Part shown: piece after piece, positions 34,988-59,680 of the stretch
Numbering within the stretch: position 1 is the first letter of the stretch
How the letters are laid out: every line of letters starts with the position of its first letter
DNA from: Jiangella ureilytica
Lineage (GTDB): Bacteria > Actinomycetota > Actinomycetes > Jiangellales > Jiangellaceae
Reading direction: 5' to 3'
Length of the DNA: 59,938 nt
Assembly: GCF_004348545.1 (NCBI RefSeq)
Contig: NZ_SMKL01000038.1
Span: 1 to 59,938, forward strand
Translations under genes and position numbers: made by a program
Notes under the pieces: model-generated
The model's input: the letters and a program-made list of their open reading frames with translations, nothing else
What the model was told of the DNA's origin: nothing
Databases searched by the model: none

Positions 34988-36003
34988 AACAGCCACCACC
35001 CGACGCCCAGGGCGCTGACCACGGCGGTGACGAAGGTCAGGGGCGCGAATCGGATCGCGAAGCTCCGGCCGAAGATGCCGGCGTGCAGCGCGATGAGCTT
35101 GATGTCCACGACCGGCCCGACGACGAGGAACACGAGCCGCGCCGTGAGCGAGAACTGCGAGAGACTGGCCGCGACGAAGGCATCGGCCTCGGAGCAGATG
35201 GCGAGCACCACCGCCAGCGTGGCGAGCACGACGACCGCCAGCCACTCCGTCTCGGAGATGGACGTCATGATCGACCGCGGGACCACGACCTGAAGCGTCG
35301 CGGCCGCGAGGGAGCCGACGACGAGCCAGCCACCCGCGTGCAGAAAGTCGTGCCTGGCCGTTCCGGCGAACACCTCCCATCGCGTGGAACCGGCCGCGAC
35401 AGGATGCGGCCGCCGCTGGAGCAGCCACTCCCGCCGTCCGAACCTCGCCCACAGGAAGCCGACGGCCACGGCCGTCGCGAACGACGCCAGCAGCCTGGCC
35501 ACTACCATGTCGGGTCGGCCCGGGAACGCGACCGCCGTTGCCACCAGCACGACCGGATTGATGGCCGGCGCCGCCAGCATGAACGCGAACGCCGCCGCGG
35601 GCGCCGCGCCGTTCGCGGTCAGCCGCCCGGCCACCGGCACCGACCCGCATTCGCAGCCGGGGAACACCGCCCCGGCCACCCCGGCCGCCGGAACGGCCAC
35701 CAACGGCCGGTCGGGGAGCAGCCGGGCGATCAGCGACGACGGCACGAAGGCCGCGATCGCGCCGCTGACGGTCACTCCGAGCGCCAGGAACGGCAGGGCC
35801 TGGACGGTGATCGACACGAAGATCGTCGCCCAGGTCTGCACGGCCGGGTGGTCCAGCGCGGTCGCCGCCCACGACTGGGCGACGACCGCGGCGAGGAGCG
35901 CGAGCATGAGCAGCTCCGGCGCGTACCGCTCCGGAGCGGGCAGCGGCGGCGCCGTGAGGCGCCGGGGCCGCCGCTGCCGTTGTGCTGGTCCGTTTCCGGG
36001 CAT
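34984..36003 (-). CDS. Permease (DUF318/ArsP_1-like)
   Basis: A 339-residue membrane protein with about eight to ten helices. GAVFPGCECGSVPVAGRLTANGAAPAAAFAFMLAAPAINPVVLVATAVAFPG is the core signature, with the CxC that is typical of the family. AICSEADAFVAASL is the second conserved segment. ATG 36003 is 7 bases after the carboxypeptidase stop, so the three genes are probably one transcript. Substrate unknown; the pairing with DUF1980 and the zinc-related surroundings suggest a metal or metal complex. Confidence 0.82.
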   Translation of the reverse strand: MPGNGPAQRQRRPRRLTAPPLPAPERYAPELLMLALLAAVVAQSWAATALDHPAVQTWATIFVSITVQALPFLALGVTVSGAIAAFVPSSLIARLLPDRPLVAVPAAGVAGAVFPGCECGSVPVAGRLTANGAAPAAAFAFMLAAPAINPVVLVATAVAFPGRPDMVVARLLASFATAVAVGFLWARFGRREWLLQRRPHPVAAGSTRWEVFAGTARHDFLHAGGWLVVGSLAAATLQVVVPRSIMTSISETEWLAVVVLATLAVVLAICSEADAFVAASLSQFSLTARLVFLVVGPVVDIKLIALHAGIFGRSFAIRFAPLTFVTAVVSALGVGWWLL

Positions 36004-38920: not shown

Positions 38921-39158
38921 CCCGGGGCGCTCTCCCTTGCCGCGTGCCTCGAAGTCAGTAAGGGGGTATGAAATGTGACACTTCGGCCCGATGGGACGAT
39001 CGGACTGTAACGGCCTGGGCTTCCCCTTGTCCAGGTCTCGAGCCTCCTGCTCCCGTTGACGGGTGGCGCGGCCCGCGATCGTCGACATGGCGCGCACCCA
39101 CAAGGCCGACGGCGTCGATGTCGAGATCGAGGCATGCGGGCGCGCGTCGGGACACTGT

Positions 39159-39173
39159 TGAGAATGAAAGTCA
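39159..39173 (+). promoter_or_regulatory. Putative Zur box upstream of rpmE2
   Basis: TGAGAATGAAAGTCA, an AT-rich dyad (TGA...TCA) in GC-rich DNA, 36 bases before the L31B start. Its left half (TGAGAAT) recurs in the site at 51418. A zinc-free L31 is a classic Zur target. Confidence 0.5.
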
Positions 39174-39208
39174 TGAACCGTTAGGGTGGTGATCGACGAG
39201 GAGGCGCG

Positions 39209-39460
39209 ATGAAGAAGGACATCCATCCCGATTACCACCCGGTGGTCTTCCGCGACAGCAGTGCGGGCCTGACCTTCCTGACCCGCTCGACCGCGACGTC
39301 GGACACGACGATCGAGTGGGAGGACGGGCAGATCTACCCTGTCGTCGACGTGGAGATCTCGTCGTCGAGCCATCCGTTCTACACCGGCCGGGCGAAGATC
39401 CTCGACACTGCGGGCCAGGTGGAGAAGTTCCGCCGGCGCTTCGGATCGCGTTCGACGTGA
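39209..39460 (+). CDS. rpmE2: 50S ribosomal protein L31 type B (zinc-free)
   Basis: An 83-residue L31 paralog lacking the CxxC zinc ribbon of the standard L31 (no Cys at all). [32 protein letters not shown] and [25 protein letters not shown] are diagnostic. Under zinc shortage it replaces the zinc-binding form and frees zinc. ATG 39209 follows GAGGAGG. Its stop overlaps the GTG of a methyltransferase gene (GTGA), coupling their translation. A decayed second copy lies at 50689-51308. Confidence 0.95.
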
Positions 39461-40209
39461 CCGGCATCCTGGGCGGCGACGAGTACCGGCACTCGGCCGA
39501 GTACGTCGACGTCCTGTTGGCTGATCCATGGCGGATGTTCGGCCCTCTGGTCGCGGCGGGACTGGAGGGCGTCGACCCTGACTCAGGGCCGATCGTGGAC
39601 CTGGGTGCGGGAACCGGCCGCGGAGTCCTGGCCGTCGCGGCCGCGCTGCCGACGGCTGACATCATTGCGGTCGAGCCCTCGGCGGCGATGCGCGCCGTGC
39701 TCATGGCCAGAGTCGGCTCCGACGAGCGGCTGCGGCAACGGGTGACGGTCGTCGGGGGTGACCTGGACGCGGTGCGGACACCGGAGCCGTTCGCCGCTGT
39801 GCTGGCGATGAATATGATCGGCCACCTGGATCGCACTGCGCGCAAGGTGTTCTGGACGAGTCTCGCGCGGCGGCTCGCCCCGGGCGGGCCCCTCGTCGTG
39901 AACCTGCAGCCACCGAGTGAGGCCGTCGAGGTGATGGAGACGCCGGCATCGGCGGTGGTGGTGGGACGGCGCAGGTACCTCGGCTCCGGCCGCGCCGCCC
40001 CGACGGCGGCCGATCAGGTCACCTGGCACATGACCTACCGCACGGTTGAGGACGGCGTCACCGTCGCGGAGGAGCGGGTCTCGTACTCGTGGTGGGTGCT
40101 GTCCGAGGCGGGGCTGCGCGACGAGCTCTCGGTGGCGGGTCTGCACGCCGAGCACCTGGGACCGCCCGAGGCCGGCGTCTACATCGGTCGCCGTCCGGCC
40201 GGTCGATGA
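39457..40209 (+). CDS. SAM-dependent methyltransferase coupled to L31B
   Basis: A 250-residue class I methyltransferase. Motif I is [20 protein letters not shown] (about 46-65), [18 protein letters not shown] is the acidic loop, and [18 protein letters not shown] is motif post-I/IV. The C-terminal part is probably substrate-specific ([34 protein letters not shown]). The GTG start overlaps the rpmE2 stop. It has a pseudogene relative beside another L31B copy (50689) and a paralog beside the zinc transporter (58949), so it belongs to the zinc-limitation response. The substrate is unknown; a ribosomal target or a zinc-chelating small molecule are both possible. Confidence 0.82.
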
Positions 40210-40444: not shown

Positions 40445-42832
40445 TCACTGGCGGCACGACGCGAGTACGCCGCCAACACCGACGCCGGGGTCGCGCAACG
40501 GCAGCCGGGTCGACGAGCCGCGGCAGGTGGGGACGTCGACCTGGTAGATGCCGCGGCCGAAGGTGGCGACGCTGAGCTGGCGGGTCGGCTCGTGGTAGCG
40601 CAGGTACATGACCGGCGCGTTCGGCAGGTTGGTGCCGAGCGCCGCCCACTCGCCGCCGTTCCACGCCGACACGTACACGCCGACGTCGGTTCCGGCGAGC
40701 AGCAGGCCGTCGGTGGTCGCGACCACCGAGTTGACCGGCGCGTCCGGCAGTCCCTGCCCGATGTCGGTCCAGGTGGCGCCGCCGTCCTCGGTGACCATGA
40801 CGTGCGGGCGGTCGCTGCCGGCGCGGAACCCGGAGAACGTCGCGTAGGCGATGTCCTCGTCGGCCGGGTTGACGGAGATGCGCGTCACCCAGGTGCCGGG
40901 CAGCTGGTCCTCGTCGACCTGGTTCCAGGTGGCGCCGAGGTCGTCGGTCCACCAGAGGTTGCCGTCGTCGGTGCCGACGTAGATGGTGTCGCCGTCGGTC
41001 GGGGCGGCGGCGACGGCAGTGATGGTGCCCCACGGGTAGCCGTCGTCGTCGTTGGGGCCGCCGTCGGTGAGATCGGGGCTGATGACTGTCCACGTGCGGC
41101 CGTTGTCGGTCGAGCGGTTCAGCCGGTTGCCGGCGTAGTAGACGACGTTGGGGTCGCTCGGGTCGAACTGCAGCGGGGTGAACCAGTTGCGGCGGTCCGA
41201 GGTCGTCAGCCTGGTGAAGTTCGGCCGCGGCGTGCCGCCGCTGTTCTCCGACCGGTAGCACGAGCCGTACTGGCTGCAGCCGAAGACGATGGCCGGATTC
41301 TCCGGGTGGATGATCACCTGCAGTCCGTCGCCGCAGCCGATCGCGTCCCAACTGCCGCCGACGCCGTTGTAGCCGCGGTTGCAGCCGTTGTCCTGGGCGC
41401 CACCCACCTTCAGCCGGGGGTCGGTCTCGGCGACGTCGACGGAGTAGAACTGCGTGTACGGCTCATAGGTGGCCTTGACCCACGACTCAGAGGCGCCGTT
41501 CGTGTCGGACCGGTACATGCCGCCGTCGTTGCCCAGGTAGACCCGGTTCGGCACCTTCGGGTCCCAGGCCATCTTGTGCTGATCGGCGTGCGGACCCTCG
41601 GAGATCCCGAACGACATGGCGCCGTCGGTCGACTCGCGCAGGTCGACACCGGCGAGGAAGACGTGGTCCGGGTTCACAGGATCGACGAAGAGCTTGCCGA
41701 ACCACCAGCTGAACGTCGACTGCGAGGCCTGTGCCGCAGTGACCGGCGTCTGCTGCCAACTGTCGCCGCCGTCGTCGGATCGGAAGAACGCCCGGAACGG
41801 CCCGAGCGCCGTGCCGACGTACGCGTACAGCCGGTCCGGGTTGCTCGGGGCGAGGGCCAGTCCCCAGCGGCCCTGGTCGGGGTCCGTGGGTAGACCGTTG
41901 GTCATCCGCTCCCAGGTCGCGCCGCCGTCGTCGGAGCGCCACAGGCTGGAGCCGGGCCCGCCGTAGGTGCGCTGGTGCGGCTCGCGCAGGTGGTCCCACA
42001 TGGCCGCGTAGACGCGGTCGGGGTTCGTGGGGTCGATGACGACCTCGGTGGCGCCGGTGGTCTCGTTCAGTGGCGCCAGCACCCGATTCCAGGTGTCGCC
42101 GCCGTCCTCGGTGAGGTAGACGCCGCGCTCGCCGCCGGGGACGAACAGGTTGCCGGCCGCGGCGGCGAAGATGCGGTCCTCGTCGCTGGGGTCGACGGCG
42201 AACCGGGCGATGGCGTGGCTGTCGGCCAGGCCGACGTGCTCCCAGGTGCCGCCGCGGTCGAGGGAGCGGTAGATGCCGTCGCCGCCGAACGTGATGGAGC
42301 CGCCGCCGGGCTGCGGCTCGCCCGTGCCGGCGAAGAGCACGCCCTCGCTGGTCATGGCGACCGCGCCCATGCCTTGGACCCAGTCGTCGGGCCAGACGGC
42401 CTCGTAGGTCATGCCGGCGTCGCTGGAGCGCCACAGGCCACCGGACGCGGCTGCGATGAAGATCTGGTCGTCGACCTGCGGGTCGATGGCGATGTCGACG
42501 ACGCGGCCGCCGATGTCGCTGGGGCCGAAGAACTCCCACTGCCGCTCGGCGAGGGGACGGTACATGCTGCGGGTGCGGATATCGACGTTGCGAGCCTCGG
42601 CACGCGCCTCGGTGTAGACCTCGGTGGACAGCTCGGTACTGCCATCACTCAGCCGCTGCGCCGTCATCCACTCGTCGGGCAGCTCCATGGGTCCGGTGGC
42701 GGTGCTGGTGCTCAGAGTGGCCGGTTGCTCGTCGCCGTAGACCATGGCGGCGACGAGCGAGACGGCGGCGACGGGCGCGGCAACGGCCGCGGCCCTGACG
42801 GTTCGGCGATAGCGGGCCAGTCTGGCGATCAT
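40445..42832 (-). CDS. Secreted BNR/sortilin-type beta-propeller protein
   Basis: A 795-residue exported protein. After a signal anchor (YRRTVRAAAVAAPVAAVSLVAAMVYG) come about ten BNR/Asp-box repeats spread over residues 100-760, for example GLWRSSDAGMTYE, GIYRSLDRGGTWE, GVYLTEDGGDTWN, SLWRSDDGGATWE, AFFRSDDGGDSWQ and VMVTEDGGATWTD. This predicts one or two beta-propellers of the VPS10/glycosyl-hydrolase-like type. No catalytic sialidase Arg triad is evident, so binding rather than hydrolysis is likely. ATG 42832 has GGGAG 7 bases upstream. A Zur-like dyad lies at 42882-42897. The ligand is unknown. Confidence 0.82.
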   Translation of the reverse strand: MIARLARYRRTVRAAAVAAPVAAVSLVAAMVYGDEQPATLSTSTATGPMELPDEWMTAQRLSDGSTELSTEVYTEARAEARNVDIRTRSMYRPLAERQWEFFGPSDIGGRVVDIAIDPQVDDQIFIAAASGGLWRSSDAGMTYEAVWPDDWVQGMGAVAMTSEGVLFAGTGEPQPGGGSITFGGDGIYRSLDRGGTWEHVGLADSHAIARFAVDPSDEDRIFAAAAGNLFVPGGERGVYLTEDGGDTWNRVLAPLNETTGATEVVIDPTNPDRVYAAMWDHLREPHQRTYGGPGSSLWRSDDGGATWERMTNGLPTDPDQGRWGLALAPSNPDRLYAYVGTALGPFRAFFRSDDGGDSWQQTPVTAAQASQSTFSWWFGKLFVDPVNPDHVFLAGVDLRESTDGAMSFGISEGPHADQHKMAWDPKVPNRVYLGNDGGMYRSDTNGASESWVKATYEPYTQFYSVDVAETDPRLKVGGAQDNGCNRGYNGVGGSWDAIGCGDGLQVIIHPENPAIVFGCSQYGSCYRSENSGGTPRPNFTRLTTSDRRNWFTPLQFDPSDPNVVYYAGNRLNRSTDNGRTWTVISPDLTDGGPNDDDGYPWGTITAVAAAPTDGDTIYVGTDDGNLWWTDDLGATWNQVDEDQLPGTWVTRISVNPADEDIAYATFSGFRAGSDRPHVMVTEDGGATWTDIGQGLPDAPVNSVVATTDGLLLAGTDVGVYVSAWNGGEWAALGTNLPNAPVMYLRYHEPTRQLSVATFGRGIYQVDVPTCRGSSTRLPLRDPGVGVGGVLASCRQ

Positions 42833-42881
42833 GCCGGGGCTCCCTCTCCGCACGGGCGTGTGACTCGGGGCATTTGAGTGC

Positions 42882-42897
42882 GAACGATAGTCATTGT
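42882..42897 (-). promoter_or_regulatory. Putative Zur-like dyad upstream of the propeller gene
   Basis: GAACGATAGTCATTGT contains the imperfect dyad AACGA-TAG-TCATT and the AACGAT core seen in the other proposed Zur boxes. It lies 50 bases before the start. Confidence 0.35.
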
Positions 42898-42964
42898 GGT
42901 GAGTGCTGTCACCGGCCGATGTACGAGGAGAGACGGTGACGGGTCCTACAGATGTAGGACGCGG

Positions 42965-48433: not shown

Positions 48434-48454
48434 TAATGAGGTTGATTATCGTTA
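48434..48454 (+). promoter_or_regulatory. Putative Zur box upstream of the C-minus operon
   Basis: TAATGA...TCGTTA is an imperfect 21-bp dyad (48434-48454). The reverse strand contains TAACGATAA, also present at 51353-51361. It lies 14 bases before the mrf-like gene. A second AT-rich stretch (CATTTTCACTTAATG, 48424-48438) overlaps it. Confidence 0.5.
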
Positions 48455-48467
48455 GAAAGAGTTGCGG

Positions 48468-49544
48468 ATGCGCATCACACCCGTAGTCCTGGTGACCGGT
48501 GTCGATCCGGACGCGATGGCGTCGGCGACCATCACGCTGCAGTGGGATCTGCCCGACGCCGTCGTCGTGCACCATCGCATCGACGTCGAGCGGAGTCGGC
48601 TGCTCAGAACCGTGAGCGACGTGACCGGCGTGGTCGAGCAGGAGGAGGTGGACCTCGAGCACGCGTGCGTCAGTTGCGCCGTGCGCGAGGACGTCGCGCC
48701 GACCGTGGCCCGGCTGGCGCACGCCGGGCGGTGGGGCGTCATCGTCGCGCACCTGCCGGCCGGCGCCGAGGCGCAGCAGGTCTGCCGCGTCGTCGCCGGT
48801 GACGTGCGGCTGCGGCACGTGCGCATCGCCGGCGTCCTGTGTGCCGTCGACGGCGATCGGCTGGTTGACGACCTGCTGGGCGACGAACTGCTGTGCGAGC
48901 GCGGCACGCACACCGCCGCGGACGACCGCCGCGGCGTGGCCGAGGTCGGCGCGGCCCAGCTGGAGTACGCCGACGCCGTCACCATCGTCGGCGCCGCCGA
49001 TGACGCGGAGCTGGAGCTGGTCCGTGCGCTCGCCCGGCCCGGCGCGGCGGTGCTCGCCGACGGCGACGTGCTGGAGCCGGCCCGGCTGCTGGGCGGCATC
49101 CACGAGCACGCCGCCGCCGAGGCCTGGGCGGCCCAGGTGCGGAACGGGCCGCTGCCGGCGTTCGATGGCGCGCACGTGTGGAGGCTGGATCTGCGGTCGG
49201 GCCGGCCGTTCCACCCGGACCGGCTGTACGAGGACATCGAGGCGATCGGTGGCGGCCCGCGCAGGTCGCGCGGCTGCTTCTGGCTGCCGACGCGGGCGAC
49301 GGTCGCGTGCGTGTGGGACGGCGCCGGTGGTCAGTTGAGCATCGGTGTGGCTGAACCGTGGGGCCGCCGCCGGCCGTTCACTCGCATCGTCGTGACCGGG
49401 ATGGACGACGGCCGCGACGAGGTCGCCGCGGCGTTCGAGCGCTGCCTGCTCACCGACGACGAGGCCCGCGGCCGCGGCATGTACTGGGAGGCCGCCGGTG
49501 ACGGCTTCGAGGCCTGGCTGGGCGACATCCGCAGCCCGCTCTGA
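48468..49544 (+). CDS. Mrf-like CobW/COG0523-family protein
   Basis: Heads the zinc-free ribosomal protein operon. The 358-residue protein is CobW-like, but the P-loop position reads [15 protein letters not shown] and lacks GKT, so GTPase activity is doubtful. The CxxC motif is [12 protein letters not shown] (Cys near 69 and 72). The CobW_C domain is present ([31 protein letters not shown]). In mycobacteria a protein of the same layout, encoded with the C-minus ribosomal proteins, recruits the hibernation factor Mpy to ribosomes under zinc starvation. I infer a similar role. ATG 48468 follows GAAAGAG. Confidence 0.8.
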
Positions 49545-49566: not shown

Positions 49567-49689
49567 ATGAAGGTTCGCAACTCGCTCAAGTCGCTCAAGA
49601 ACAAGCCCGGCTCGCAGGTGGTCCGACGCCGTGGCCGCGTCTACGTGATCAACAAGCTGAACCCGCGGTTCAAGGCCCGGCAGGGCTGA
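49567..49689 (+). CDS. rpmJ: 50S ribosomal protein L36, zinc-free form
   Basis: A 40-residue L36 ([20 protein letters not shown]) with no Cys, while the standard form has a zinc-binding Cys3His set. ATG 49567 follows AGGAG. The gene is 22 bases after the mrf-like gene and is followed 5 bases later by rpsR. Expected to replace the zinc form when zinc is scarce. Confidence 0.95.
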
Positions 49690-49694: not shown

Positions 49695-49934
49695 ATGGCG
49701 ACCAGGAAGCCGCCGCCGTCAGGCCGCCGCAAGCGCCCCAAACCGCTGCTCGCCGCCGAGGTCACCTACGTCGACTACAAGGACGTGAAGCTGTTGAAGG
49801 CGTTCGTCTCCGAGCGCGGCAAGATCCGCTCCCGCCGGGTCACCGGGCTGACGCCGGAGCAGCAGCGAGCGGTGGCCAAGGCGATCAAGAACGCCCGGGA
49901 GATGGCCCTGCTGCCGTACCCGTCGGGACGCTGA
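49695..49934 (+). CDS. rpsR: 30S ribosomal protein S18, zinc-free form
   Basis: A 79-residue S18. [38 protein letters not shown] is diagnostic. The N-terminal Cys of the zinc-binding form is absent. It lies between rpmJ and rpmB in the operon. Confidence 0.95.
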
Positions 49935-49952: not shown

Positions 49953-50189
49953 ATGTCCGCACGATGCCAGGTGACCGGAGCGCAGCCGGGCTTCGGTCAC
50001 TCCATCTCACACTCGCATCGGCGCACCAAGCGCCGGTTCGACCCGAACATCCAGCGCAAGCGCTACTGGGTGCCGTCGCTGGGACGCACCGTCACGCTCA
50101 CGGTGAGCGCGCGGGGCATCAAGACCATCGACAAGCGCGGCATCGAGGCCGTCGTCGCCGAGATCATCGCCCGAGGGGAGCGGCTGTAG
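49953..50189 (+). CDS. rpmB: 50S ribosomal protein L28, zinc-free form
   Basis: A 78-residue L28 ([30 protein letters not shown]). One Cys remains (Cys5), but its partner in the usual CxxC is Thr, so a complete zinc site is not possible. ATG 49953 follows GAAGGGA. Its stop TAG directly abuts the rpmG start. Confidence 0.95.
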
Positions 50190-50354
50190 ATGGCCCGCAA
50201 CGACATCCGGCCGATCATCAAGCTGCGTTCCACCGCGGGCACGGGCTACACCTACGTGACTCGGAAGAGTCGCCGCAACGACCCCGACCGCATGGTGCTG
50301 CGCAAGTACGACCCCGTCGTCCGCCGGCACGTCGACTTCCGCGAGGAGCGCTGA
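50190..50354 (+). CDS. rpmG: 50S ribosomal protein L33, zinc-free form
   Basis: A 54-residue L33 ([41 protein letters not shown]) without Cys. The zinc form has CxxC pairs at equivalent places. ATG 50190 directly follows the rpmB stop. It ends 3 bases before rpsN. Confidence 0.95.
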
Positions 50355-50357: not shown

Positions 50358-50663
50358 GTGGCGAAGAAGAGCAAGATCGTCCAGAACGAACGCCGCCGCG
50401 AGGTCGTCGCCCGGTACGCCGAGCGCCGGGCCGAGCTCAAACGCATCATCGCCGACCCCGACAGCACCGACGACGAGCGCGCCGCCGCCCGGCGGGCGCT
50501 GACCCGTCAGCCCCGCGACGCCAGCGCCACCCGGCTGCGCAACCGCGACCAGGTCGACGGCCGGCCCCGCGCGGTCTACCGGAAGTTCGGGCTGTCCCGC
50601 ATCCGGTTGCGCGACATGGCGCACCGCGGCGAGCTGCCTGGCGTCACCAAGTCCAGCTGGTGA
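50358..50663 (+). CDS. rpsN: 30S ribosomal protein S14, zinc-free long form
   Basis: A 101-residue S14, the long Cys-free type, as opposed to the 61-residue zinc-binding form. [20 protein letters not shown] and RCxxxG-like [28 protein letters not shown] are typical. GTG 50358. It is the last gene of the operon; a decayed L31B-methyltransferase copy converges on it 25 bases later. Confidence 0.95.
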
Positions 50664-50688: not shown

Positions 50689-51308
50689 TCAGGCGCTTCG
50701 ACGCAGGACGAACATCGCCATCGCCTCAGGGCCGACGGGCTCCGCGAGCAGGCCGGCGGCGGTCACTTCGTCTTGCAGGCCGGCTTCGGAGAACACCCAC
50801 CACCGTAGGAGACGTGCTCCTCGCTCACGGTCCCTTCGTCGTCGACCGTGCGGTAGGTCATGTACCACATGACCTGGCCGGCTCCCGCGGGCTCGGCGCG
50901 TCCCGAGCCTGGGTAGGTGAGCCGCCCGAGCGTGACGGTCGCGAAAGCGGTGGCGGGCACCTCGACGGCCTCCGGCGGGGGCTGGAGGTTGACCAGCGCC
51001 TCGCGTCGGGCGCGAGGCGCTGGGCGTGCATCGCCCAGAATCCGGCGCGGGCAAGGGGTCGAGATGGCCGATGCTGTTCAGGGCGAGGACCGCCCCATAC
51101 CGGTCGGGTAACTGCGGCGAGGTGTGGTGTAGCGGCGGCGGAACTGGCTGGCCGAGAAGATGTCGACGTCGACGACGGGGGTACGTCCGGCCGTCCTCCC
51201 AGACGACGGTCTTGTCCGAGGTGATGGTCGAGCGGGTCAGGAAGGCCACCCCGGCGCTGGTGTGGCGGAACACGACCGGCCCGTACTCGGGGTGGATCCC
51301 TCCTTCAT
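50689..51308 (-). pseudogene. Decayed L31B-methyltransferase pair
   Basis: Reading leftward, ATG 51308 starts MKEG, a frameshift follows, then [40 protein letters not shown] (L31B), a second shift and [11 protein letters not shown] and QFRRRY. The sequence then jumps into the middle of the methyltransferase: [86 protein letters not shown]. The SAM-binding half is deleted and at least four frame changes are present. It mirrors the intact pair at 39209-40209. The Zur-like box ahead of it is intact. Confidence 0.85.
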
Positions 51309-51351: not shown

Positions 51352-51374
51352 GTAACGATAACAGTTATCGTAAC
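51352..51374. promoter_or_regulatory. Putative Zur box (near-perfect palindrome)
   Basis: CGATAAC-A-GTTATCG is a perfect 7+1+7 core within a 23-bp imperfect palindrome. It lies between the decayed L31B copy and the transporter operon, and could serve both. Confidence 0.6.
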
Positions 51375-51417
51375 GGCTGCGCCCGGATCACAAGGATCGC
51401 GCCGAGGATGACAAAAC

Positions 51418-51433
51418 TGAGAATCGTTATCTA
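51418..51433 (+). promoter_or_regulatory. Second putative Zur box of the transporter operon
   Basis: TGAGAATCGTTATCTA, 38 bases before the surface-protein start. It shares TGAGAAT with the rpmE2 site and AACGAT (reverse strand) with the others. Confidence 0.5.
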
Positions 51434-51471: not shown

Positions 51472-54400
51472 ATGTCCGTCATGCAACGGTTCATGGCCCG
51501 GAAGATCACGGCTGCGGCCGGCGCGGCCGCACTCGTCGTCGCGTCCGGGGTGGCGGCACACCAGGCCGGCGCGGAGCCGGGTCCGCCGCCGCCCGCCGAC
51601 GAGCGCAGGGTGCTCACGACGGAGCACGTCGATGCGATCAACGTCGGGTTCGACGGCGAACGTCTGACCGTCAACTCGAAGATCAGCCCGCCGGTCGAGC
51701 ACGTCGAGGTGGATGACCTGGTGTACCAGCTCTCCGACCTCGGTCGCGTGGAGGGACTTCCGGAGCAGTACGTGGAGTTCATCGGCGCCGACGCCGCGTG
51801 GGTCATCATGCAGACCCAGAACCCGGACGTCCTCTGGGCCGGCTGGAGCACTGAGGAGATCGGCACCGGGATCGTCGACGGCGACGCGGTCGACATCATG
51901 CTGACCGACGCGCGCGGACCCGGCGATGTCGAGGTCTTCCAGACCGGCCCGTTCGGAGAGCCCATCCGGATCTTCAGCTCCGACGAGGACCACAAGACGT
52001 TGCGCCAGGCCGTCAACGCGCACGTGCACGCGAACTGGGCGTTCACCCAGCCAGGCGTCTACACGCTGACCTTCACGGCCGGAGCGACGGTCGGCGGCCA
52101 GGCGGTGACGTCGGAGCCGGTCGAGTACACGTGGGTCGTCGGAGGGAGCAACGGCACGCTGCCAGAGCCCGCGACGACGGCGACGACGCTCGAGGTGCCC
52201 GCGGAGGCGGCGGCCGGCGACGAGGTCGTCCTCGAGGCCGCGGTGGCCACCGACACCGGCGACCACGCGCCGCCCGCACCGGGCGGGTACGTCGAGTTCC
52301 ACGACGGGGAGACGTCGCTCGGGTGGGCGGCACTGGCTGACGGCCGCGCCACCTTGCCCGTCACGTTCGACGCGCCCGGCGACCATGGGATCACGGCCAC
52401 GTACGTGTCGCAGGAGCCCCAGTTCTATGCCAGCTCGACCTCCGCGCCGGCCACGCTGACCGTCGGTGATCCCGGTGAGGATCCGCCCACGCCGACCCTG
52501 ACGGTCACCGGGCCGGGCGCGGTCGCGGCGGGCGACGAGGTCACCCTGACCGTGAGCCAGGACCCGGCGACCGAACTGAGCGCGTACCGGTGGTCCACCC
52601 GGGCGCCGGGTGCGCTAAACTTCGAGCCGATCGGCGGCGCGACCACTGACACGCTGACCTTCGTCGCCGCCGCAGCCGACGGCGGCCGGCAGTACCGGGC
52701 GGCGCTCTACACCGGCGACGGCCGGTTCGTCGCGCAGTCCGCCCCGCACACCCTGACGGTCACCGCGGAGGATCCGGGCGCGGAGGACGGGACGGAGGAT
52801 CCGGGCGCGGAGGACGGGACGGAGGAGCCGGGCGCGGAGGACGGCACCGAGGATCCGGGCGAGGACCCGCCGGGCCAGTGTGAAGACCCACGGACGGTAC
52901 TGACCGACGAGCACGTCGATCTTCTCTCGCCGGTCTTGGAGGGGTCGCGACTGGACCTGCGCGCCCGGGTCGGAACGTCGGCCGACCACACGTTCCATGA
53001 CCCCGCCGATCTCATGGTGCAGGTGAAGGACCCGGAGGCGGCGATCGAGGTTCCGGCCGGCGAGGGCTTCGCGTTCCTCGGCGAGGCCGGCGACCCGCTG
53101 TGGATGATCCCGCAGACACAGAACCCGGAAATCGTCTGGGCGGGCTGGTCCACGGAGGAGCTCACGCCGGGCTCGCTGCAGGGCGATGCGGTCGAGATGA
53201 CGCTGATCGACGCCGAGGGGCCGGGCGAGGTCGAGGTGTTCCAGACCGCCGGCCTGGGTGCGGCGCCGACACGGATCTTCAGCTCGACCGACGTCCTGGA
53301 GCCACGACGGCAGAGCGTGGGCCAGCACGTGCACGCGAACTGGGCGTTCACCGAGCTGGGCGAGTACACGCTCACCTTCGAGGTGAGCGGCGCCCTCCCG
53401 GATGGGACGACTGTCGCGACGGGGGAGGTGGACTACGCCGTGGTCGTCGGTGACCTGGAGTGCGACCCGGGCGATCCGGGCGACGAGGACGGGACCGACG
53501 GCGGAGGTGACGCGAGCGGTGGCGACGCGAACGGCGGCGACGACGGTACTGAGACCGGTGGAGCGGACGACGGCGACGCGAACGGCGGCGACGACGGGAC
53601 CGACTCCGGTGGAGCGGACGACGGCGACGCGAACGGCGGCGACGACGGTGCCGACTCTGGTGACGGCGGCGCAGACTCCGGTGGTGACGGCTCGGATGCC
53701 GGTGGTGACGCCGGCAACGGGCCGAGGCCGACGACCAAGCCGAGCGGCGCGGTCTGTGTGCCGCGCACGCCCAGTACGAGCGCGTCGCCTGGGGCGTCGA
53801 ACACGCCGGGCGGCGGGTCACAGACCCCCGGCGGCGGCCAGTCCGGTGACCCGGTCGTGCTCAGCACCGAGCACGTCGATCTGCTGTCGCCGCGATTGGA
53901 AGGGTCGGCACTGTCGCTCGAGGCGAAGGTGGGATCGGCGAACGACCATACGTTCTACGACCCGGCGGACGTGCTGGTGCACGTCGGTCCGGCGGCGGCG
54001 AGCACCGTGCCGGACGGGGACACGTATGCGTTCCTCGGCGCGGCCGGCGCGCCGTTGTGGCTGATCCCTGAGACGCAGAACCCGGACGTGGTCTGGGCCG
54101 GCTGGTCGACGGAGCAACTGGCAGCCGGCGCGTTCGCCGGCGACACCGTCGACTTCACGCTGGTGGGCGCCGAGGGGCCGGGGACGGTGGAGGTGTTCCA
54201 GAGCGCGGGCTTCGGCGGCGTCACCCGGATCTTCAGCTCCGAGGAGTCGCTGCCGGCGCGGCAGCAGAGCGTCGGCCAGCACGTGCATGCCAACTGGGCG
54301 TTCTCGGCGGAGGGCGACTACACGCTGACATTCGAGGCCGCCGGGACGCTGGCCGGCGGCGAGGCCGTCACCACCGGCCCGGTGGAGTACTCGTTCACCG

Positions 54401-54708
54401 TCGGGGACCTGAGTGGGGCGCGCAACGCCTCGGCCGCCGGGACGGGCGGCGTGATCGCGCCGGCGGTGAACCGTGCCGCGCCGGCGGTGACGCAGGTCGA
54501 CACGACACCGACGCCAACGCCCACCTCCACCGCGACACCGACCCCGTCGCCGTCGGCGACCACTCTGGCTGCCGGCGAGGACTGCGACCTGGCGAGCACC
54601 GGCTCGTCGGGCCTGCCCGGGCTGACGGTTCTGGGTGGTCTGCTTGTCGCGGCCGGCGCGGTCGCGACCGCGGCGTACCTGCGCGATCGTCGTGTGGCTC
54701 GCGGTTAG
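51472..54708 (+). CDS. LAxTG-anchored surface protein with three choice-of-anchor-M domains
   Basis: A 1078-residue cell-wall protein, first gene of a metal-uptake operon. Signal peptide at 1-34. Choice-of-anchor-M (TIGR03769) domains at about 45-225, 478-660 and 798-985, each with an HVD near its start and HVHANWAF near its end (184, 620, 937). Two Ig/PKD-like beta domains at 230-430. Linkers are Asp/Glu/Gly repeats (EDPGAEDGT near 440; DGDANGGDDG near 690-740). The C terminus has LASTG (about 1041), a helix and DRR, i.e. a sortase-E-type signal. ATG 51472 follows GGGAG. Likely delivers metal to the adjacent ABC transporter. Confidence 0.88.
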   Translation: MSVMQRFMARKITAAAGAAALVVASGVAAHQAGAEPGPPPPADERRVLTTEHVDAINVGFDGERLTVNSKISPPVEHVEVDDLVYQLSDLGRVEGLPEQYVEFIGADAAWVIMQTQNPDVLWAGWSTEEIGTGIVDGDAVDIMLTDARGPGDVEVFQTGPFGEPIRIFSSDEDHKTLRQAVNAHVHANWAFTQPGVYTLTFTAGATVGGQAVTSEPVEYTWVVGGSNGTLPEPATTATTLEVPAEAAAGDEVVLEAAVATDTGDHAPPAPGGYVEFHDGETSLGWAALADGRATLPVTFDAPGDHGITATYVSQEPQFYASSTSAPATLTVGDPGEDPPTPTLTVTGPGAVAAGDEVTLTVSQDPATELSAYRWSTRAPGALNFEPIGGATTDTLTFVAAAADGGRQYRAALYTGDGRFVAQSAPHTLTVTAEDPGAEDGTEDPGAEDGTEEPGAEDGTEDPGEDPPGQCEDPRTVLTDEHVDLLSPVLEGSRLDLRARVGTSADHTFHDPADLMVQVKDPEAAIEVPAGEGFAFLGEAGDPLWMIPQTQNPEIVWAGWSTEELTPGSLQGDAVEMTLIDAEGPGEVEVFQTAGLGAAPTRIFSSTDVLEPRRQSVGQHVHANWAFTELGEYTLTFEVSGALPDGTTVATGEVDYAVVVGDLECDPGDPGDEDGTDGGGDASGGDANGGDDGTETGGADDGDANGGDDGTDSGGADDGDANGGDDGADSGDGGADSGGDGSDAGGDAGNGPRPTTKPSGAVCVPRTPSTSASPGASNTPGGGSQTPGGGQSGDPVVLSTEHVDLLSPRLEGSALSLEAKVGSANDHTFYDPADVLVHVGPAAASTVPDGDTYAFLGAAGAPLWLIPETQNPDVVWAGWSTEQLAAGAFAGDTVDFTLVGAEGPGTVEVFQSAGFGGVTRIFSSEESLPARQQSVGQHVHANWAFSAEGDYTLTFEAAGTLAGGEAVTTGPVEYSFTVGDLSGARNASAAGTGGVIAPAVNRAAPAVTQVDTTPTPTPTSTATPTPSPSATTLAAGEDCDLASTGSSGLPGLTVLGGLLVAAGAVATAAYLRDRRVARG

Positions 54709-54710
54709 GG

Positions 54711-56333
54711 ATGGACGTGCGCAGTAGCGGCCGGCCCGGTCGACGCGGAGCCGGGCCGGCCGCCATCACCGCCACGCTCGCCGCGGCGGCGCTCGCCTTG
54801 ACCGGGTGCGCGGCGCCGTCGACGCTCAGCGCGAGCGACGACCGGGTGCAGGTGGTCACCACGACGGGGCTGCTGGCCGACCTGGTACGCAACGTGGGCG
54901 GTGACCGGGTGAACGTCAGCTCACTGGTGCCCGACCAGGCGGACCCGCACTCGTACGAGCCGAGCCTGCGCGACATCCGCAACGTGGTCTACGCCGACGT
55001 CGCGTTCAGCAACTACCTGCTGCTGGAGCAGCAGGCGATCATCAAGGCGCTCGACGCCAACCTGCCGGACGAGGTGCCGAACATCTCCCTGGCCGAGGGG
55101 GCGGTGAAGTACGCGGCCGAGATCATCCCGCTGGTCGAGAACGTCGCCCTCGACACGATCTGGCTCGGCATGCGGGTGCGCGGGACGGGGGAGCAGTACG
55201 GCGCGAGCCGCGCCTCGGACGTCTACGTCAGCGGCACCGGCGTCGACGGGCCCGGAGACCTGGTCGCGTACCTGACGGAGTCGTTCGGCAACCCTGAGTT
55301 CTACGTGAACTCCACCGACGGGTTCGACGCCTCCGACGGATACCGCGACGACACCGCGACCCTGCCGCCCGACGCGCACACGCACATGAGCTGGGCGTTC
55401 ACCGAGCCCGGGATATACCGGCTGACGATGCGGGCCGCGCTGGCCCCCGAGCCGGATGCTCGCACCGTCGACCTCGGGAAGCAGACCTTCACGTTCGCCG
55501 TCGGCGTCGACCCCCACTCCGTCCCCGGCATGGAGGGCGCGGAGGTGCTGAACGGCGGTCATGCCGACGTGACGGTCGACATCGACACCGGTGAGCTGTA
55601 CCTGTTGGTCGATCCGCACGGCGGTGACGGTCATGCGCACGCCGAGGTCTTCGACCCGGCCACGACCGTGATCGAGGTGCCGAACAAGGCGCTGCACGAG
55701 ATCCCGGCCGACGAGGGGTTCCGGTTCCTCGGCCGGCCCGGGGACCCGATCTTCCAGCTGCCCCAGGCAGTCCTCGGCCGGCACGTGCACGGCGAGATCG
55801 ACCCGCACCTGTGGCAGGACGTCGGCAACGCGATCTCCTACGTCGAGCTGATGCGCGACACGCTGATCCAGGTGGACCCGGACGGCGCCCGCGAGTACCG
55901 CGACAACGCCACGCGCTACATCGGCGAGCTCGAGCGGCTCGATGCCGACGTCCGCGGCACGATCGCGACGATCCCGGAGTCGCGACGGCACCTGGTCACC
56001 ACCCACGACGCGTTCGGCTACCTGGGTGCGGCCTACGACGTGCAGATCTCGGGGTTCGTCACGCCCAACCCGGCCACCGAGCCGAGCCTGGCCGACCGGC
56101 GGAAGCTGGCCGAGACGATCCGCAACCTGCGCATCCCGGCGGTCTTCCTCGAGCCGAACCTGGTGACCCGGTCGTCGACGCTCACGGAGGTCGCCGAGGA
56201 CCTCGGCGTCGCCGTCTGCGAGATCTACGGCGACACGTTCGACGACGAGGTCACCAGCTACGTGGAGATGATGCGATTCAACGCCGAGTCGCTGCGCTCC
56301 TGCCTGTCCGAACCAGTGGAGAGAATCGGATGA
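54711..56333 (+). CDS. Anchored-repeat ABC transporter substrate-binding lipoprotein (ZnuA-like)
   Basis: A 540-residue metal-binding lipoprotein (lipobox ALTGC, Cys33). The two ZnuA/TroA lobes carry His80 (DPHSYEPS), His366 (DPHLWQD), His432 (TTHDAFGY) and an acidic residue near 508. Between the lobes (about 143-355) is an inserted domain with HTHMSWAFTEPGIY (223-236) and later NGGHADVTVD (281-290). These match the second and first halves of the choice-of-anchor-M domain, in swapped order. His-rich DPHGGDGHAHA (301-311) adds potential metal sites. ATG 54711 is 2 bases after the previous stop. Confidence 0.9.
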   Translation: MDVRSSGRPGRRGAGPAAITATLAAAALALTGCAAPSTLSASDDRVQVVTTTGLLADLVRNVGGDRVNVSSLVPDQADPHSYEPSLRDIRNVVYADVAFSNYLLLEQQAIIKALDANLPDEVPNISLAEGAVKYAAEIIPLVENVALDTIWLGMRVRGTGEQYGASRASDVYVSGTGVDGPGDLVAYLTESFGNPEFYVNSTDGFDASDGYRDDTATLPPDAHTHMSWAFTEPGIYRLTMRAALAPEPDARTVDLGKQTFTFAVGVDPHSVPGMEGAEVLNGGHADVTVDIDTGELYLLVDPHGGDGHAHAEVFDPATTVIEVPNKALHEIPADEGFRFLGRPGDPIFQLPQAVLGRHVHGEIDPHLWQDVGNAISYVELMRDTLIQVDPDGAREYRDNATRYIGELERLDADVRGTIATIPESRRHLVTTHDAFGYLGAAYDVQISGFVTPNPATEPSLADRRKLAETIRNLRIPAVFLEPNLVTRSSTLTEVAEDLGVAVCEIYGDTFDDEVTSYVEMMRFNAESLRSCLSEPVERIG

Positions 56334-57301
56334 CGCTACGAACCCGGGCTACCCGCGCGGCGGCCGGTGCCGTTCTGACCGTCTTGACGGTGTCCCTGAG
56401 CGCGGCGTCCGCCGTCGCCACGGACGACCCCGACCTGGACCAGCAGATCGATCCCGACCAGGCGATCGTGACGGAACAAGCAGTGCTCAGCGAGGGCCAC
56501 GTCGACATCGGCCCGCGCTACGTCGACGGCCAGTGGACGCTGCTGGTCCACGACGACCACGCCGAGCCGCCGGTCTGGCGCGCGATGCCGAACACCGTGT
56601 TCCAGGTCACGGACGCCTCCCTCACCACCGTGCCCGACAATCCGGACTATGCCTTCCTCCCGGCTGAGCCGGGCGCCGACGTCCACGTCGTGCCGCAGGC
56701 CGAGCAGCCGGGCGTGGTGTGGGTGGGGTGGAACACCCAGTACCCCAGTGTCATGGACACGATCGACCGCGGGGTCACGCTCACCCTGCGCGGCGTCCAG
56801 GGGCCCGGCGACGTCGTGGTGTTCCTGCAGAGCGGCACACTCGGCGAGCCCGAGGTGTTGTGGGACAGCCGCGAGGCGGGCCCGCAGGATCTCTGGGTCG
56901 AGGTGAACACGCACACCCACGCCAACTGGGTGTTCTCCGAGCCCGGCGTCTACCTGGTGGAGGTCGAGGTGTCGGCCGACCTGGTGTCCGGCGAGGCGGA
57001 GTCGGACACCCAGGTGATCCGCTTCGCCGTCGGCGACGCCACCAGCACCGACGAGGCGCTCGCCGCCGAGTACGCGCAGACGGCGGACCCGTCCACGCCT
57101 GCGACGGCCGAGACGCCGGCCGTCGCCGACGACGCGTCGGAGTCCAGCGGAGCCGGGGGAGTCGTCATGGTCGGTGTCGGCATCGCCGCCCTGCTGGTGA
57201 TCGTCCTCGTCACCGTCCTGCTCCGTGGCCGGAGCGCCAAGAAGCGAGCCGCGGCGCAGCGCGACGCGGCGGCCGCGTCGCTACGCGGAGACCAGGGATG
57301 A
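56330..57301 (+). CDS. Membrane-anchored single choice-of-anchor-M protein
   Basis: A 323-residue exported protein. Signal peptide 1-29, one choice-of-anchor-M domain (about 50-235) with EGHVDIG and NTHTHANWVFSEPGVY, a Ser/Thr/Ala/Asp linker, and a C-terminal helix GVVMVGVGIAALLVIVLVTVLL followed by RGRSAKKR. It is held by the membrane, whereas the first protein is sortase-linked, so it may pass metal between the wall and the ZnuA-like protein. ATGA overlaps join it to both neighbours. Confidence 0.85.
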   Translation: MTLRTRATRAAAGAVLTVLTVSLSAASAVATDDPDLDQQIDPDQAIVTEQAVLSEGHVDIGPRYVDGQWTLLVHDDHAEPPVWRAMPNTVFQVTDASLTTVPDNPDYAFLPAEPGADVHVVPQAEQPGVVWVGWNTQYPSVMDTIDRGVTLTLRGVQGPGDVVVFLQSGTLGEPEVLWDSREAGPQDLWVEVNTHTHANWVFSEPGVYLVEVEVSADLVSGEAESDTQVIRFAVGDATSTDEALAAEYAQTADPSTPATAETPAVADDASESSGAGGVVMVGVGIAALLVIVLVTVLLRGRSAKKRAAAQRDAAAASLRGDQG

Positions 57302-58041
57302 GCGTCCTGGAGGCGCGTGGCGTGACGGTCGCACTCGGCGGCCGTCCCGTTCTCCACGATGTCGACCTGGCCGTCGACACCGGTGAGCTCACCGGGCTGA
57401 TCGGACCGAACGGGGCCGGAAAGACCACGCTGCTGCGCTCGATCCTGGGCCTGGTCCGCACGTCCGCCGGGCGGATCGAGGTCGACGGGCGGCCGGTCGG
57501 CCCCCGCCGTTCACCGGTGGGCTACGTGCCGCAGCGGCACGAGTTCGCCTGGGACTTCCCGATCTCGGTCGAGAACGCCGTCATGACGGGCCGCAGCGGC
57601 CGCCTCGGTCTCTTCCGCCGTCCGGGGGTGGCCGACTGGCAGGCGGTCGGTGAGGCCCTCGACCGGGTGGGCATGAGCGAGCTGGCGCGCCGGCCGGTCG
57701 GTGAGCTCTCCGGCGGCCAGCGACAGCGGGTGCTCGTGGCCCGGGCGCTCGCGCTGCAGCCGCGGGTGCTGCTGCTCGACGAGCCGTTCACCGGCCTCGA
57801 CCTGCCGACCCAGGAGCTGCTGACCGGGCTGTTCGTGGAGCTCTCCCGGGAGGACCGGGCGGTGCTGATGACGACACACGACCTCGTCGGCGCGCTGGAC
57901 ACCTGCACCCGGATCGCGCTGCTGAACCGGACGATCGTCGCCGACGCGCCGCCGAGCGAGCTGCTCGACCCCGAGCCCTGGATGCGGGCGTTCGGCGTCA
58001 GCGAGACCAGCCCGCTGCTGAAGATCCTGAAGGTGATGTGA
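57298..58041 (+). CDS. Zinc/manganese ABC transporter ATPase
   Basis: A 247-residue ATPase of the ZnuC/MntB type. Walker A is GPNGAGKTT (about 36-44), Q loop PQRHEF, signature LSGGQRQRV, Walker B VLLLDEPFTGLD, H loop TTHDLV. FAWDFPISVENAVMTGR is typical of metal-importer ATPases. ATG 57298 overlaps the previous stop. Confidence 0.92.
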   Translation: MSVLEARGVTVALGGRPVLHDVDLAVDTGELTGLIGPNGAGKTTLLRSILGLVRTSAGRIEVDGRPVGPRRSPVGYVPQRHEFAWDFPISVENAVMTGRSGRLGLFRRPGVADWQAVGEALDRVGMSELARRPVGELSGGQRQRVLVARALALQPRVLLLDEPFTGLDLPTQELLTGLFVELSREDRAVLMTTHDLVGALDTCTRIALLNRTIVADAPPSELLDPEPWMRAFGVSETSPLLKILKVM

Positions 58042-58044: not shown

Positions 58045-58926
58045 GTGTCGATCTCCGAGTTCATCGCCGACCTCACCAACCCCGACCTCGCGTTCCTGCC
58101 GAAGGCGCTGCTCATCGCGGTGATGTCGAGCATCGTGTGCGGCGTCGTCGGCTGTTATGTGGTGCTGCGGGGGATGGCGTTCATCGGTGACGCCGTCGCG
58201 CACGCCGTCTTTCCCGGCCTGGCGGTCGCGTTCGTGCTGCAGGGCAGCCTCGTCGTCGGCGGCGCCGTCGCCGGGGTGGTCACCGCCATCCTGGTGGCGG
58301 TGTTCGCGCAGAATCGCCGGGTCAAGGAGGACTCCGTCATCGGGGTCTTCTACGTGGCCTCGTTCGCGCTGGGCATCGTCATCATCTCGCAGGCGCCCGG
58401 CTATGCGGGGTCGCTGCAGCAGTTCCTGTTCGGGTCGATCACCGGGGTTCCCGACGAGGACCTCTACACCGTCGCGCTCACTGGTGTCGTCGTGCTGGGC
58501 GCGGTGCTGCTCCTGCACCAGCAGTTCGTCACTGTCAGCCTCGATCGCGAGCTGGCCCGCGCGGTCGGCCTGCGGGTCTTCCGGCTCGACATCGCGCTCT
58601 ACGTCCTCGTGACCGTCGCGATCGTCATCTCCGTCCAGACCATCGGCAACATCCTGGTGCTCGCCCTCCTCGTCACCCCCGCCGCGACGGCCCGACTGCT
58701 CACCGACCGGCTGGGCATCATGATGCTGCTCGCCCCGCTGATCGGCGGGGTGTCCGCCACGGTGGGGTTGTACCTGTCATGGAGCTATGACCTTCCGGTC
58801 GGCGGCACCATCGTCCTGGCCCTGACGGCCGCCTTCTTCTCCGCCTACGTCCTCGCGCCGCGGCACGGACTGGTCGCCAAGCGCCGGCGCAAGACCGAGC
58901 AACAGCCGACCACGGTGCCGGCGTAG
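58045..58926 (+). CDS. Zinc/manganese ABC transporter permease
   Basis: A 293-residue ABC-3 family permease with about eight to nine helices. RGMAFIGDAVAHAVFPGLAVAFVL is the hallmark segment, and LLVTPAATARLLTDRLGIMMLLAPLIGGVSATVGLYLSWSYDLPVGGTIVL the C-terminal one. GTG 58045 is 3 bases after the ATPase stop. It completes the importer; the substrate is zinc by context, though manganese cannot be excluded. Confidence 0.92.
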   Translation: MSISEFIADLTNPDLAFLPKALLIAVMSSIVCGVVGCYVVLRGMAFIGDAVAHAVFPGLAVAFVLQGSLVVGGAVAGVVTAILVAVFAQNRRVKEDSVIGVFYVASFALGIVIISQAPGYAGSLQQFLFGSITGVPDEDLYTVALTGVVVLGAVLLLHQQFVTVSLDRELARAVGLRVFRLDIALYVLVTVAIVISVQTIGNILVLALLVTPAATARLLTDRLGIMMLLAPLIGGVSATVGLYLSWSYDLPVGGTIVLALTAAFFSAYVLAPRHGLVAKRRRKTEQQPTTVPA

Positions 58927-58948
58927 CGGCCCCATGACAGGAGCACCG

Positions 58949-59680
58949 ATGAGCATCGACGACGCAGGCTATGAACGGCTGGCGGAGTTCCACGACCTCT
59001 TCATGGACGAGCCGTGGCAGCGGCTTGGTCCGTACGTGCGTGACGCCTTCGCCCATCTCGGCGGCGACGCCGTCGTGGTCGAGGTCGGCGCGGGCACCGG
59101 CATGGGGACCCGCACGATCGCGCGGGAGATGCCCGCACGCATCGTGGCACTCGAACCGGCACTGGTGATGCGCGCCGTCCTGACCGCCCGGATGGCCGAC
59201 GACACCGACCTCGCCTCACGGGTCACCGTCGTCGCAGGATCGGCGCCGGGCGACCTCCACCTCCTGCCGGACACGGTCGACGGATTCGTGTGCGCACACA
59301 TGCTCGGCCACCTGGAGCGCGTCGCGCGGCGGGATCTTCTCGCCTGGCTCGGATCGCACCTGAACCCCGGCGGCGTCGGCCTCGTCACCACACAACAGGC
59401 GCCCGACCCCGGCGCTGCCGACGAGGACATCGTCGAGGTCCGTCGGCTGGGTGACTACGAGTACCGTGCGCTCCACCTCTCGGCCGGGCGTGCGGCAGCG
59501 GAGGCGTACACCAGCCGATATGAGGTGTGGCACGGTGAAACCAGGATCAGGGACGAGCGGTTCTCGGGTTCGTGGCGCATCGTCGGTGCCGACGACATCG
59601 CCGCCGACCTTCCGCCGACCCTGCGCCTGGAGCCGGTCGACCGCTCGGTCGCGCTCATCCGGCCCAGGGCTCCGGTGTGA
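58949..59680 (+). CDS. SAM-dependent methyltransferase, transporter-linked paralog
   Basis: A 243-residue class I methyltransferase related to the one at 39457: VVVEVGAGTGMGTRTIAREMPARIVALEPALVMRAVLTARM aligns with its motif I and acidic loop, and VCAHMLGHLERVARRDLLAWLGSHLNPGG with the next. ATG 58949 is preferred over 58934 because AGGAG lies 5 bases before it. It follows the permease by 22 bases and converges on zur. Together with the two L31B-linked copies it makes three relatives in 20 kb. The substrate is unknown. Confidence 0.82.
   Translation: MSIDDAGYERLAEFHDLFMDEPWQRLGPYVRDAFAHLGGDAVVVEVGAGTGMGTRTIAREMPARIVALEPALVMRAVLTARMADDTDLASRVTVVAGSAPGDLHLLPDTVDGFVCAHMLGHLERVARRDLLAWLGSHLNPGGVGLVTTQQAPDPGAADEDIVEVRRLGDYEYRALHLSAGRAAAEAYTSRYEVWHGETRIRDERFSGSWRIVGADDIAADLPPTLRLEPVDRSVALIRPRAPV

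Follow-up and report, generated by a model that had tools for sequence, protein, structure and literature searches.

A patchy actinobacterial methyltransferase family linked repeatedly to zinc-starvation genes, and its overlap with the gene for zinc-free ribosomal protein L31B

A gene for the zinc-free ribosomal protein L31B overlaps a gene for a class I SAM-dependent methyltransferase, here called MT1, in the window, that is, the whole stretch of 59,938 nucleotides that was analysed. As an arrangement, this overlap is local; of wider significance is a methyltransferase family that, though patchy, is repeatedly linked to zinc, and this link is well supported by genome comparison. MT1 and its relative MT3, encoded in the same window, may belong to a Zur-induced family of acidic amine N-methyltransferases that probably act on a small metal-binding molecule, an explanation that we hold to be evenly balanced between right and wrong. 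Methylation of the ribosome is possible.

The overlapping pair and the zinc locus

The window comes from contig C100 (71.8% G+C) of an assembly of 6.35 Mb in 168 contigs, whose relatives are actinobacteria. The pair and the site before it are as follows.

39158..39174, + strand: Zur-box-like site TTGAGAATGAAAGTCAT, 34 bases upstream of the L31B ATG (position weight matrix (PWM) score 12.9, moderate)
39209..39460, + strand: L31B, ribosomal protein L31 of the zinc-free type (Pfam, NCBIfam PRK01678)
39457..40209, + strand: MT1, class I SAM-dependent methyltransferase with a GTG start in the L31B stop (sequence, Pfam, model)

L31B matches Pfam Ribosomal_L31 (E 3.4e-28) and reaches 135 bits against the type B L31 model (NCBIfam PRK01678), whose cut-off is 86. 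MT1 carries a SAM-binding domain above the family cut-off (Methyltransf_25, 49.1 bits against 27, E 9.2e-13; Methyltransf_12, 37.8 bits against 30), and is thereby a member of the class I SAM methyltransferases. Its GTG at 39457 lies inside the stop codon of L31B. The GTGA overlap of L31B with a methyltransferase, the starting point of the sequence-only reading, is thus borne out by the coordinates and profile matches of both genes. The start of MT1 is backed by the N-termini picked in two congeners (MSPGLGADEY in L037 and MTVALGADEY in L038). No clear ribosome-binding site is visible directly 5' of the MT1 GTG, which fits translational coupling to L31B. GTGA and ATGA overlaps are ordinary in bacterial operons.

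A second intact L31B-like gene, encoding no cysteine, is present in the window's genome on contig C82 (L195, 4250-4495, - strand). Just before its start is a Zur-like site that scores 11.7, similar to the site at the window's L31B.

Several other features stand on the 5' side of the pair. A gene for a secreted-looking M14 zinc carboxypeptidase (36014-38893, - strand) is divergent from L31B, with the Zur-like site at 39158-39174 in the shared intergenic stretch, and is adjoined by genes for an ArsP-type permease and its TIGR03943 partner subunit (34250-36003, - strand). By eye, a permease of similar appearance was noted close to the zinc locus in two mycobacterial genomes (L164, L165). A tandem repeat of 19/57 bases occupies 33862-34165, about 1.4 kb after genes for tRNA-Gln and tRNA-Glu.

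About 8 kb beyond MT1 lies a zinc locus composed of the following features.

48442..48458, + strand: Zur-box-like site upstream of the CobW-like gene (PWM 16.0)
48462..49544, + strand: CobW/MRF-like GTPase (Pfam CobW_C)
49567..49689, + strand: L36 (Pfam)
49695..49934, + strand: S18 paralogue (Pfam)
49953..50189, + strand: L28 paralogue (Pfam)
50190..50354, + strand: L33 paralogue (Pfam)
50358..50663, + strand: S14 paralogue (Pfam)
~50692..51308, - strand: decayed L31B-methyltransferase pair, with its pieces in different frames and the methyltransferase partly missing (sequence matches)
51355..51371, + strand: Zur-box-like site between the relic and the transporter operon (PWM 20.1, the best in the window)
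51417..51433, + strand: Zur-box-like site upstream of the transporter operon (PWM 15.8)
51472..54708, + strand: transporter-associated surface protein, choice-of-anchor M, TIGR03773 (profile)
54711..56333, + strand: ZnuA-like substrate-binding protein of the 'anchored repeat' type, TIGR03772 (Pfam, profile)
56333..57301, + strand: second surface protein, choice-of-anchor M (profile)
57298..58041, + strand: ZnuC-like ABC transporter ATPase (profile)
58045..58926, + strand: ZnuB-like ABC-3 permease (profile)
58934..59680, + strand: MT3, methyltransferase of a sister clade (36% identity to MT1; separate clade in the tree)

This operon has the known set of Zur-controlled alternative ribosomal proteins with a CobW/MRF GTPase. 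The CobW-like GTPase scores 142.1 bits against the NCBIfam model for MRF, the ribosome-hibernation recruiting GTPase, below the cut-off of 375. A decayed copy of the pair and a third methyltransferase had also been claimed for this locus, and both are present. In the relic, residues 5-44 of L31B can be recognised at 70% and residues 147-210 of MT1 at 62.5% identity, in different frames, with DNA matches at 50739-51093 and 51145-51308. MT3 is intact and starts 7 bases past the ABC-3 permease gene.

Distribution, gene neighbours and Zur-like sites

MT1 has matches at E up to 1e-12 in 33 of 296 genomes of the class, and in 15 of these 33, by our reading, a zinc-free ribosomal protein gene, a CobW-like gene or a close Znu gene is no more than 20 kb away. 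Members at E up to 1e-20 occur in 11 of the 22 genomes of the window's family and, as matches to the family profile with the same cut-off, in just two of 248 genomes of a genus taken to be Mycobacterium from its MspA porin genes; both of the latter adjoin zinc-free ribosomal protein genes. Within the window's own genus, three of 12 genomes have no family match at the cut-off. Given this patchiness, the family is not essential to the zinc-starvation response.

A scan of named genomes, which partly overlap with the class sample, located 71 loci of the MT1 family. This contig scan used a narrower alignment; the 21-row alignment was too diverse. Neighbourhoods were counted at 57 of the 71 (L077-L134 minus L132), the remaining loci being short, weak or not part of the main set. 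Among the 57, some share one genome (L083/L131, L100/L112 and L124/L134), their flanks vary in length, and their genes were called by a simple rule based on G+C by codon position. Zinc-free ribosomal protein genes occur in the available flanks of 26 loci, and the remaining 31 show none there. Metallophore-like genes were found at 24 loci, a CobW-like gene at 32 (with matches from 24% identity) and a Fur-family gene at 21 (without typing as Zur). With zinc-type neighbours defined in this partly loose way, at least one zinc-free ribosomal protein, CobW-like, Fur-family or Znu gene is nearby at 40 of the 57 loci, and five have none of the listed neighbour families. The proposal that methylation is part of the zinc-starvation response therefore gains support from genome context, as the family is linked to zinc-starvation genes well beyond this genome.

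The direct partner of the methyltransferase gene varies. L31B and MT1 are contiguous in two of the 22 genomes of the window's family, the window's own and G124, and the pairing is not conserved. In G124 the order is CobW, L36, S18, L28, L33, S14, MT3, L31B and MT1. Here (L037, 10280-11320, - strand), MT3 and L31B form one uninterrupted reading frame with no stop between them, the L31B ATG is still preceded by a purine-rich stretch, and MT1 starts two bases past the L31B stop. Four congeners (L067-L070) have MT3 immediately after S14 in a CobW-led string, and MT1 follows the permease gene in G113 (L038). Other relatives of MT1 lie approximately 4-84 bases after S18 (L081, L083, L085, L087, L131), follow CobW (L080, L088, L126), or, as judged from called starts, share 4-8 bases with a thioredoxin-reductase-like gene (L097, L110, L124); such gaps are approximate, being based on called starts or match ends. 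In Amycolatopsis taiwanensis (L102), L31B stands before MT1, yet a separate Zur-like site precedes MT1. Partners for coupling are thus interchangeable, and the recurring element is the zinc context. In a further congener, G102, apparently just the tail of S14 is left between the CobW-like gene and MT3 (L066, 9382-9496).

Candidate Zur sites were scored with a PWM built from nine published M. smegmatis Zur sites (PMC7174638), which themselves score 23.7-32.4. The three highest sites of the window (20.1, 16.0 and 15.8) stand before the CobW-like gene and the transporter operon. The site at L31B ranks sixth in the window and, at 12.9, is below all nine published sites. Seven positions in the window score at least 12, whereas 30 shuffles gave 0.4 on average and never more than 2; the seven represent six distinct sites, two of which are not at zinc genes. 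Sites scoring up to 16.4 also occur inside coding sequence at four unrelated loci of the window's genus. Consequently, single sites of 12-16, that of L31B included, provide only moderate evidence. A Zur-like site scoring 13.1 (42884-42900) lies upstream of a gene for a large Sortilin/BNR-repeat protein (40448-42853, - strand).

The family as a whole gives a clearer signal. A Zur-like site of at least 12 lies within 200 bases upstream of 30 of 52 methyltransferase genes. The corresponding figures are 66 of 2080 for stretches drawn at random from these loci and 170 of 1168 for called genes; true zinc promoters are included in both controls. Such sites are thus commoner before MT1 relatives than by chance, as would be expected of members of a Zur regulon. 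The 52 genes come from 51 of the 57 loci, with hand-set starts for L085 and L118. The other 22 have no upstream site of at least 12, and some of these stand behind S18 or CobW genes. Four of the five loci without any of the listed neighbour families (L096, L106, L107, L108) have a Zur-like site of at least 18.8 before the methyltransferase gene; the fifth, L130, was outside the upstream-site scoring. It is very improbable that the neighbourhood is accidental, with a secondary-metabolism methyltransferase happening to overlap L31B. Such an accident would suit the commonness of GTGA overlaps and the contiguity of the pair in only two of the family's genomes, but not the repetition of the linkage in several families, nor the Zur-like sites before so many relatives.

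The predicted enzyme and its possible substrates

The structural model of MT1, built with 52 sequences, has a mean pLDDT of 95.7 and a pTM of 0.91. Its best match among solved folds is TylM1 (4oqd; Z 23.5, rmsd 3.0, 230 of 239 residues aligned), such that the whole predicted chain has the fold of the TylM1-type amine N-methyltransferases. Further matches are CalS10 (Z 22.3), YunM (21.9), DesVI (21.8), CypM (21.7) and glycine N-methyltransferase (20.8). The C-methyltransferases PsmD and SgMT (21.5 and 21.4) score almost the same as CypM, and the list also includes CmoA (20.1) and an mRNA-cap methyltransferase (19.4). Foldseek places CalS10, CcbJ and TylM1 at the top. By sequence alone, MT1 comes closest to the glycopeptide N-methyltransferase MtfA (E 1.6e-9). 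With family profiles, a 'SAM dependent methyltransferase' (9fce) ranks level with or just above MtfA, and profile searches also reach CysG, described just as a SAM-dependent methyltransferase, and protein arginine methyltransferases. Since CmoA and cap, C- and arginine methyltransferases are among the matches, the predicted fold alone fixes neither the substrate nor the methylated atom.

None of the named relatives is a close counterpart. The amino-sugar N-methyltransferases TylM1, DesVI and CalS10 resemble MT1 over the whole length of the fold (Z 21.8-23.5), but share 18-19% identity with it, and the context of MT1 is zinc homeostasis rather than sugar biosynthesis. CypM and YunM, both RiPP methyltransferases, are similarly close in fold (Z 21.7-21.9); according to its PDB title, CypM is a peptide N-terminus methyltransferase. 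The best NCBIfam model for MT1 is that of the daptide methyltransferases, likewise RiPP enzymes (NF041820, residues 39-233), at 62.5 bits far below the cut-off of 175, and for MT3 it is CpaM, at 25.6 bits. Tyr10 and His123 of MT1 are present in all 52 rows of the family alignment. Tyr14 and His123 of TylM1 are named in PDB titles. MT1 Tyr10 falls on TylM1 Tyr14 provided that the alignment, which begins with residue 9 on 13, runs on without a gap; the His123 of MT1 bears the same number as that of TylM1.

An amine or peptide N-methyltransferase is favoured over an RNA enzyme by the matches of the model and of the sequence, and by the acidity of the family (median pI 5.06, range 4.57-6.54 in 52 proteins). 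Methylation of rRNA or tRNA in zinc-starved ribosomes, which the ribosomal protein genes as neighbours and the presence of CmoA and the cap methyltransferase in the fold list might suggest, accordingly seems a slim prospect. Such acidity is atypical of an RNA enzyme, structure and sequence searches point mostly to methyltransferases of amines and peptides, and Pfam finds in MT1 the methyltransferase domain only and no RNA-binding domain.

A protein target within the ribosome fares somewhat better, yet is still unlikely. The substrate of MT1 would then be L31B or a fellow zinc-free ribosomal protein, methylated at its N-terminus or on a side chain so as to mark or tune ribosomes made when zinc is scarce. 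This is in keeping with the overlap of MT1 and L31B, the position of MT3 directly after S14 in several congeners and its shared frame with L31B in G124, the relatives that closely follow S18, and the peptide and glycopeptide substrates of CypM and MtfA. However, the partner changes between L31B, S14 and S18 and is often absent, with none in the available flanks of more than half of the loci, and many relatives lie in metallophore-like clusters or beside transporters. A more specific version, in which dedicated coupled methyltransferases mark the N-termini of zinc-free L31B, S14 and S18 under zinc starvation, is decidedly unlikely; if it were true, zinc-free ribosomes would bear a chemical mark that standard ribosomes are without. 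The ribosome as target, one of two options in the sequence-only reading, is not supported in that form: the pairing is not conserved, relatives adjoin S18, S14, CobW, Fur-family, Znu and metallophore genes instead, the proteins are acidic, and among solved structures those closest to MT1 act mostly on small amines and peptides.

MT1 might instead take over from a methyltransferase that needs zinc, itself doing without the metal, just as the zinc-free ribosomal proteins do. Cysteine is absent from 29 of the 52 family rows, and replacements of this kind are typical of Zur regulons, with six ribosomal protein paralogues listed for that of S. coelicolor (PMC6103462). The idea is nonetheless improbable, as no zinc-dependent counterpart was identified and the other matches of MT1 in its own genome are weak and generic. 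One enzyme considered as the one being replaced was RlmA. This zinc-finger rRNA methyltransferase is absent among the matches listed in the fold and profile searches, which excludes nothing.

Equally improbable is the detoxification of foreign zinc chelators by methylation. That the sequence of MT1 is closest to a glycopeptide N-methyltransferase would agree with such a role, as would the reported ability of vancomycin to bind zinc and induce a zinc starvation response (PMC4726154), and several relatives adjoin a thioredoxin-reductase-like gene. No neighbour of that type was seen in the window, though, and the case is purely circumstantial.

A pointer to a small metal-binding substrate comes from gene fusions. 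At L053, L054, L057 and L060, a thiazolinyl imide reductase carries the methyltransferase at its C-terminal end, and all four long ORFs scanned at these loci exceed the cut-off of TIGR01761 and contain a methyltransferase domain. The fused domains fall inside the MT1 family tree (33-40% to MT1), where they cluster with free copies of the same loci and L041 (support 100/96); MT1 and MT3 are in other subclades. An NRPS gene is two genes away at L054, and a similar long ORF is nearby at L053 (by eye only). In pyochelin biosynthesis, a thiazoline is reduced and its ring nitrogen is then N-methylated. By analogy with this order of reactions, the fusion suggests N-methylation of a metallophore in these relatives.

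MT1 differs from the fused domains in standing alone, in a genus essentially without NRPS. The window's genome, which for an NRPS metallophore tailoring enzyme would be expected to encode the NRPS as well, has no NRPS condensation domain. The domain is absent from seven of the eight genomes of the genus examined, the eighth having one marginal match. Likewise, eight of the 12 genus genomes were searched for a homologue of the relatives' double-methyltransferase metallophore protein, and none was found at E up to 1e-10. With neither component present, NRPS-type zincophore biosynthesis is rejected as the role in the window's genome. MT1 must there act on something other than the relatives' metallophore, be it a protein, a metallophore taken up from outside or another small amine. 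The suggestion of a 'metal ligand' as target is thus strengthened by the fusions to a metallophore enzyme, but not by the gene content of the genus itself.

The window's genome also has a nicotianamine-synthase-like gene, with a gene for an ATP-grasp/amino acid ligase after it (L166, 9630-11778), and the synthase family occurs in all eight genus genomes examined. No convincing Zur site was found at the synthase gene, where a match scoring 11.1 overlaps the gene's own start, and this lead was therefore set aside. For SBP5-type transporters, the window's genus has only general relatives (27-31%).

Known systems and a proposed role

Methyltransferases have been connected with zinc before, in other settings. 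Opine-type zincophore clusters, some of them from actinomycetes, contain predicted PF13649 methyltransferases that are proposed to modify the zincophore (PMC7438024). These can be likened to MT1 by their broad Pfam family only, and the passages that describe them note no link to ribosomal proteins. In M. smegmatis, MSMEG_6055, annotated as a class I SAM methyltransferase, is upregulated in a zur mutant and under TPEN, and has two predicted Zur sites (PMC7174638). It is probably another protein and not an orthologue of MT1, as judged by the arrangement and spacing of the published sites: in two genomes of the presumed Mycobacterium genus that carry both published sites at the published spacing, no MT1-family gene lies in the 20 kb around them (best tblastn E 0.03), and no Pfam family is recognised, at E up to 1e-4, in the ORF next to these sites. 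A third example is MAP3738c, reported as a zinc-induced 'type12 methyltransferase' (PMC4298942). The word 'methyltransferase' does not occur in the main text of a review of Zur regulons (PMC6103462), and such an enzyme is not in the set described there. The sequence-only reading knew of no description of its proposal. This holds for the MT1 family beside zinc-free ribosomal proteins, of which no report was found in the open-licence literature, but not for zinc-linked methyltransferases in general, with both the zincophore-cluster and the mycobacterial zinc-induced enzymes in print.

The preferred explanation, a Zur-induced N-methyltransferase of small metal-binding molecules, can be set out as a series of steps. 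As zinc falls, Zur would leave the candidate site upstream of L31B, and expression of the family would be turned on along with that of zinc importers, CobW-type chaperones and zinc-free ribosomal proteins. L31B and MT1 would be translated as a coupled pair, the overlap serving co-expression, and L31B would take the place of its zinc-binding counterpart in the ribosome. The early steps, Zur release and L31B replacement, follow the established Zur model (PMC6103462) and are inferred here. MT1 would then N-methylate a small amine ligand, which is the least certain step; in relatives, the substrate would be a thiazoline-type metallophore. In a lineage seemingly without NRPS, the methyltransferase gene may have moved into the zinc-free ribosomal protein set.

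Bacteria are known to answer zinc starvation with uptake, chaperones and zinc-free paralogues. To these, a methyltransferase family that recurs in the response would add a step of chemical modification. The MT1 family would thereby offer a genetic handle on the N-methylation of metallophores, and on a possible special modification of zinc-free ribosomes.
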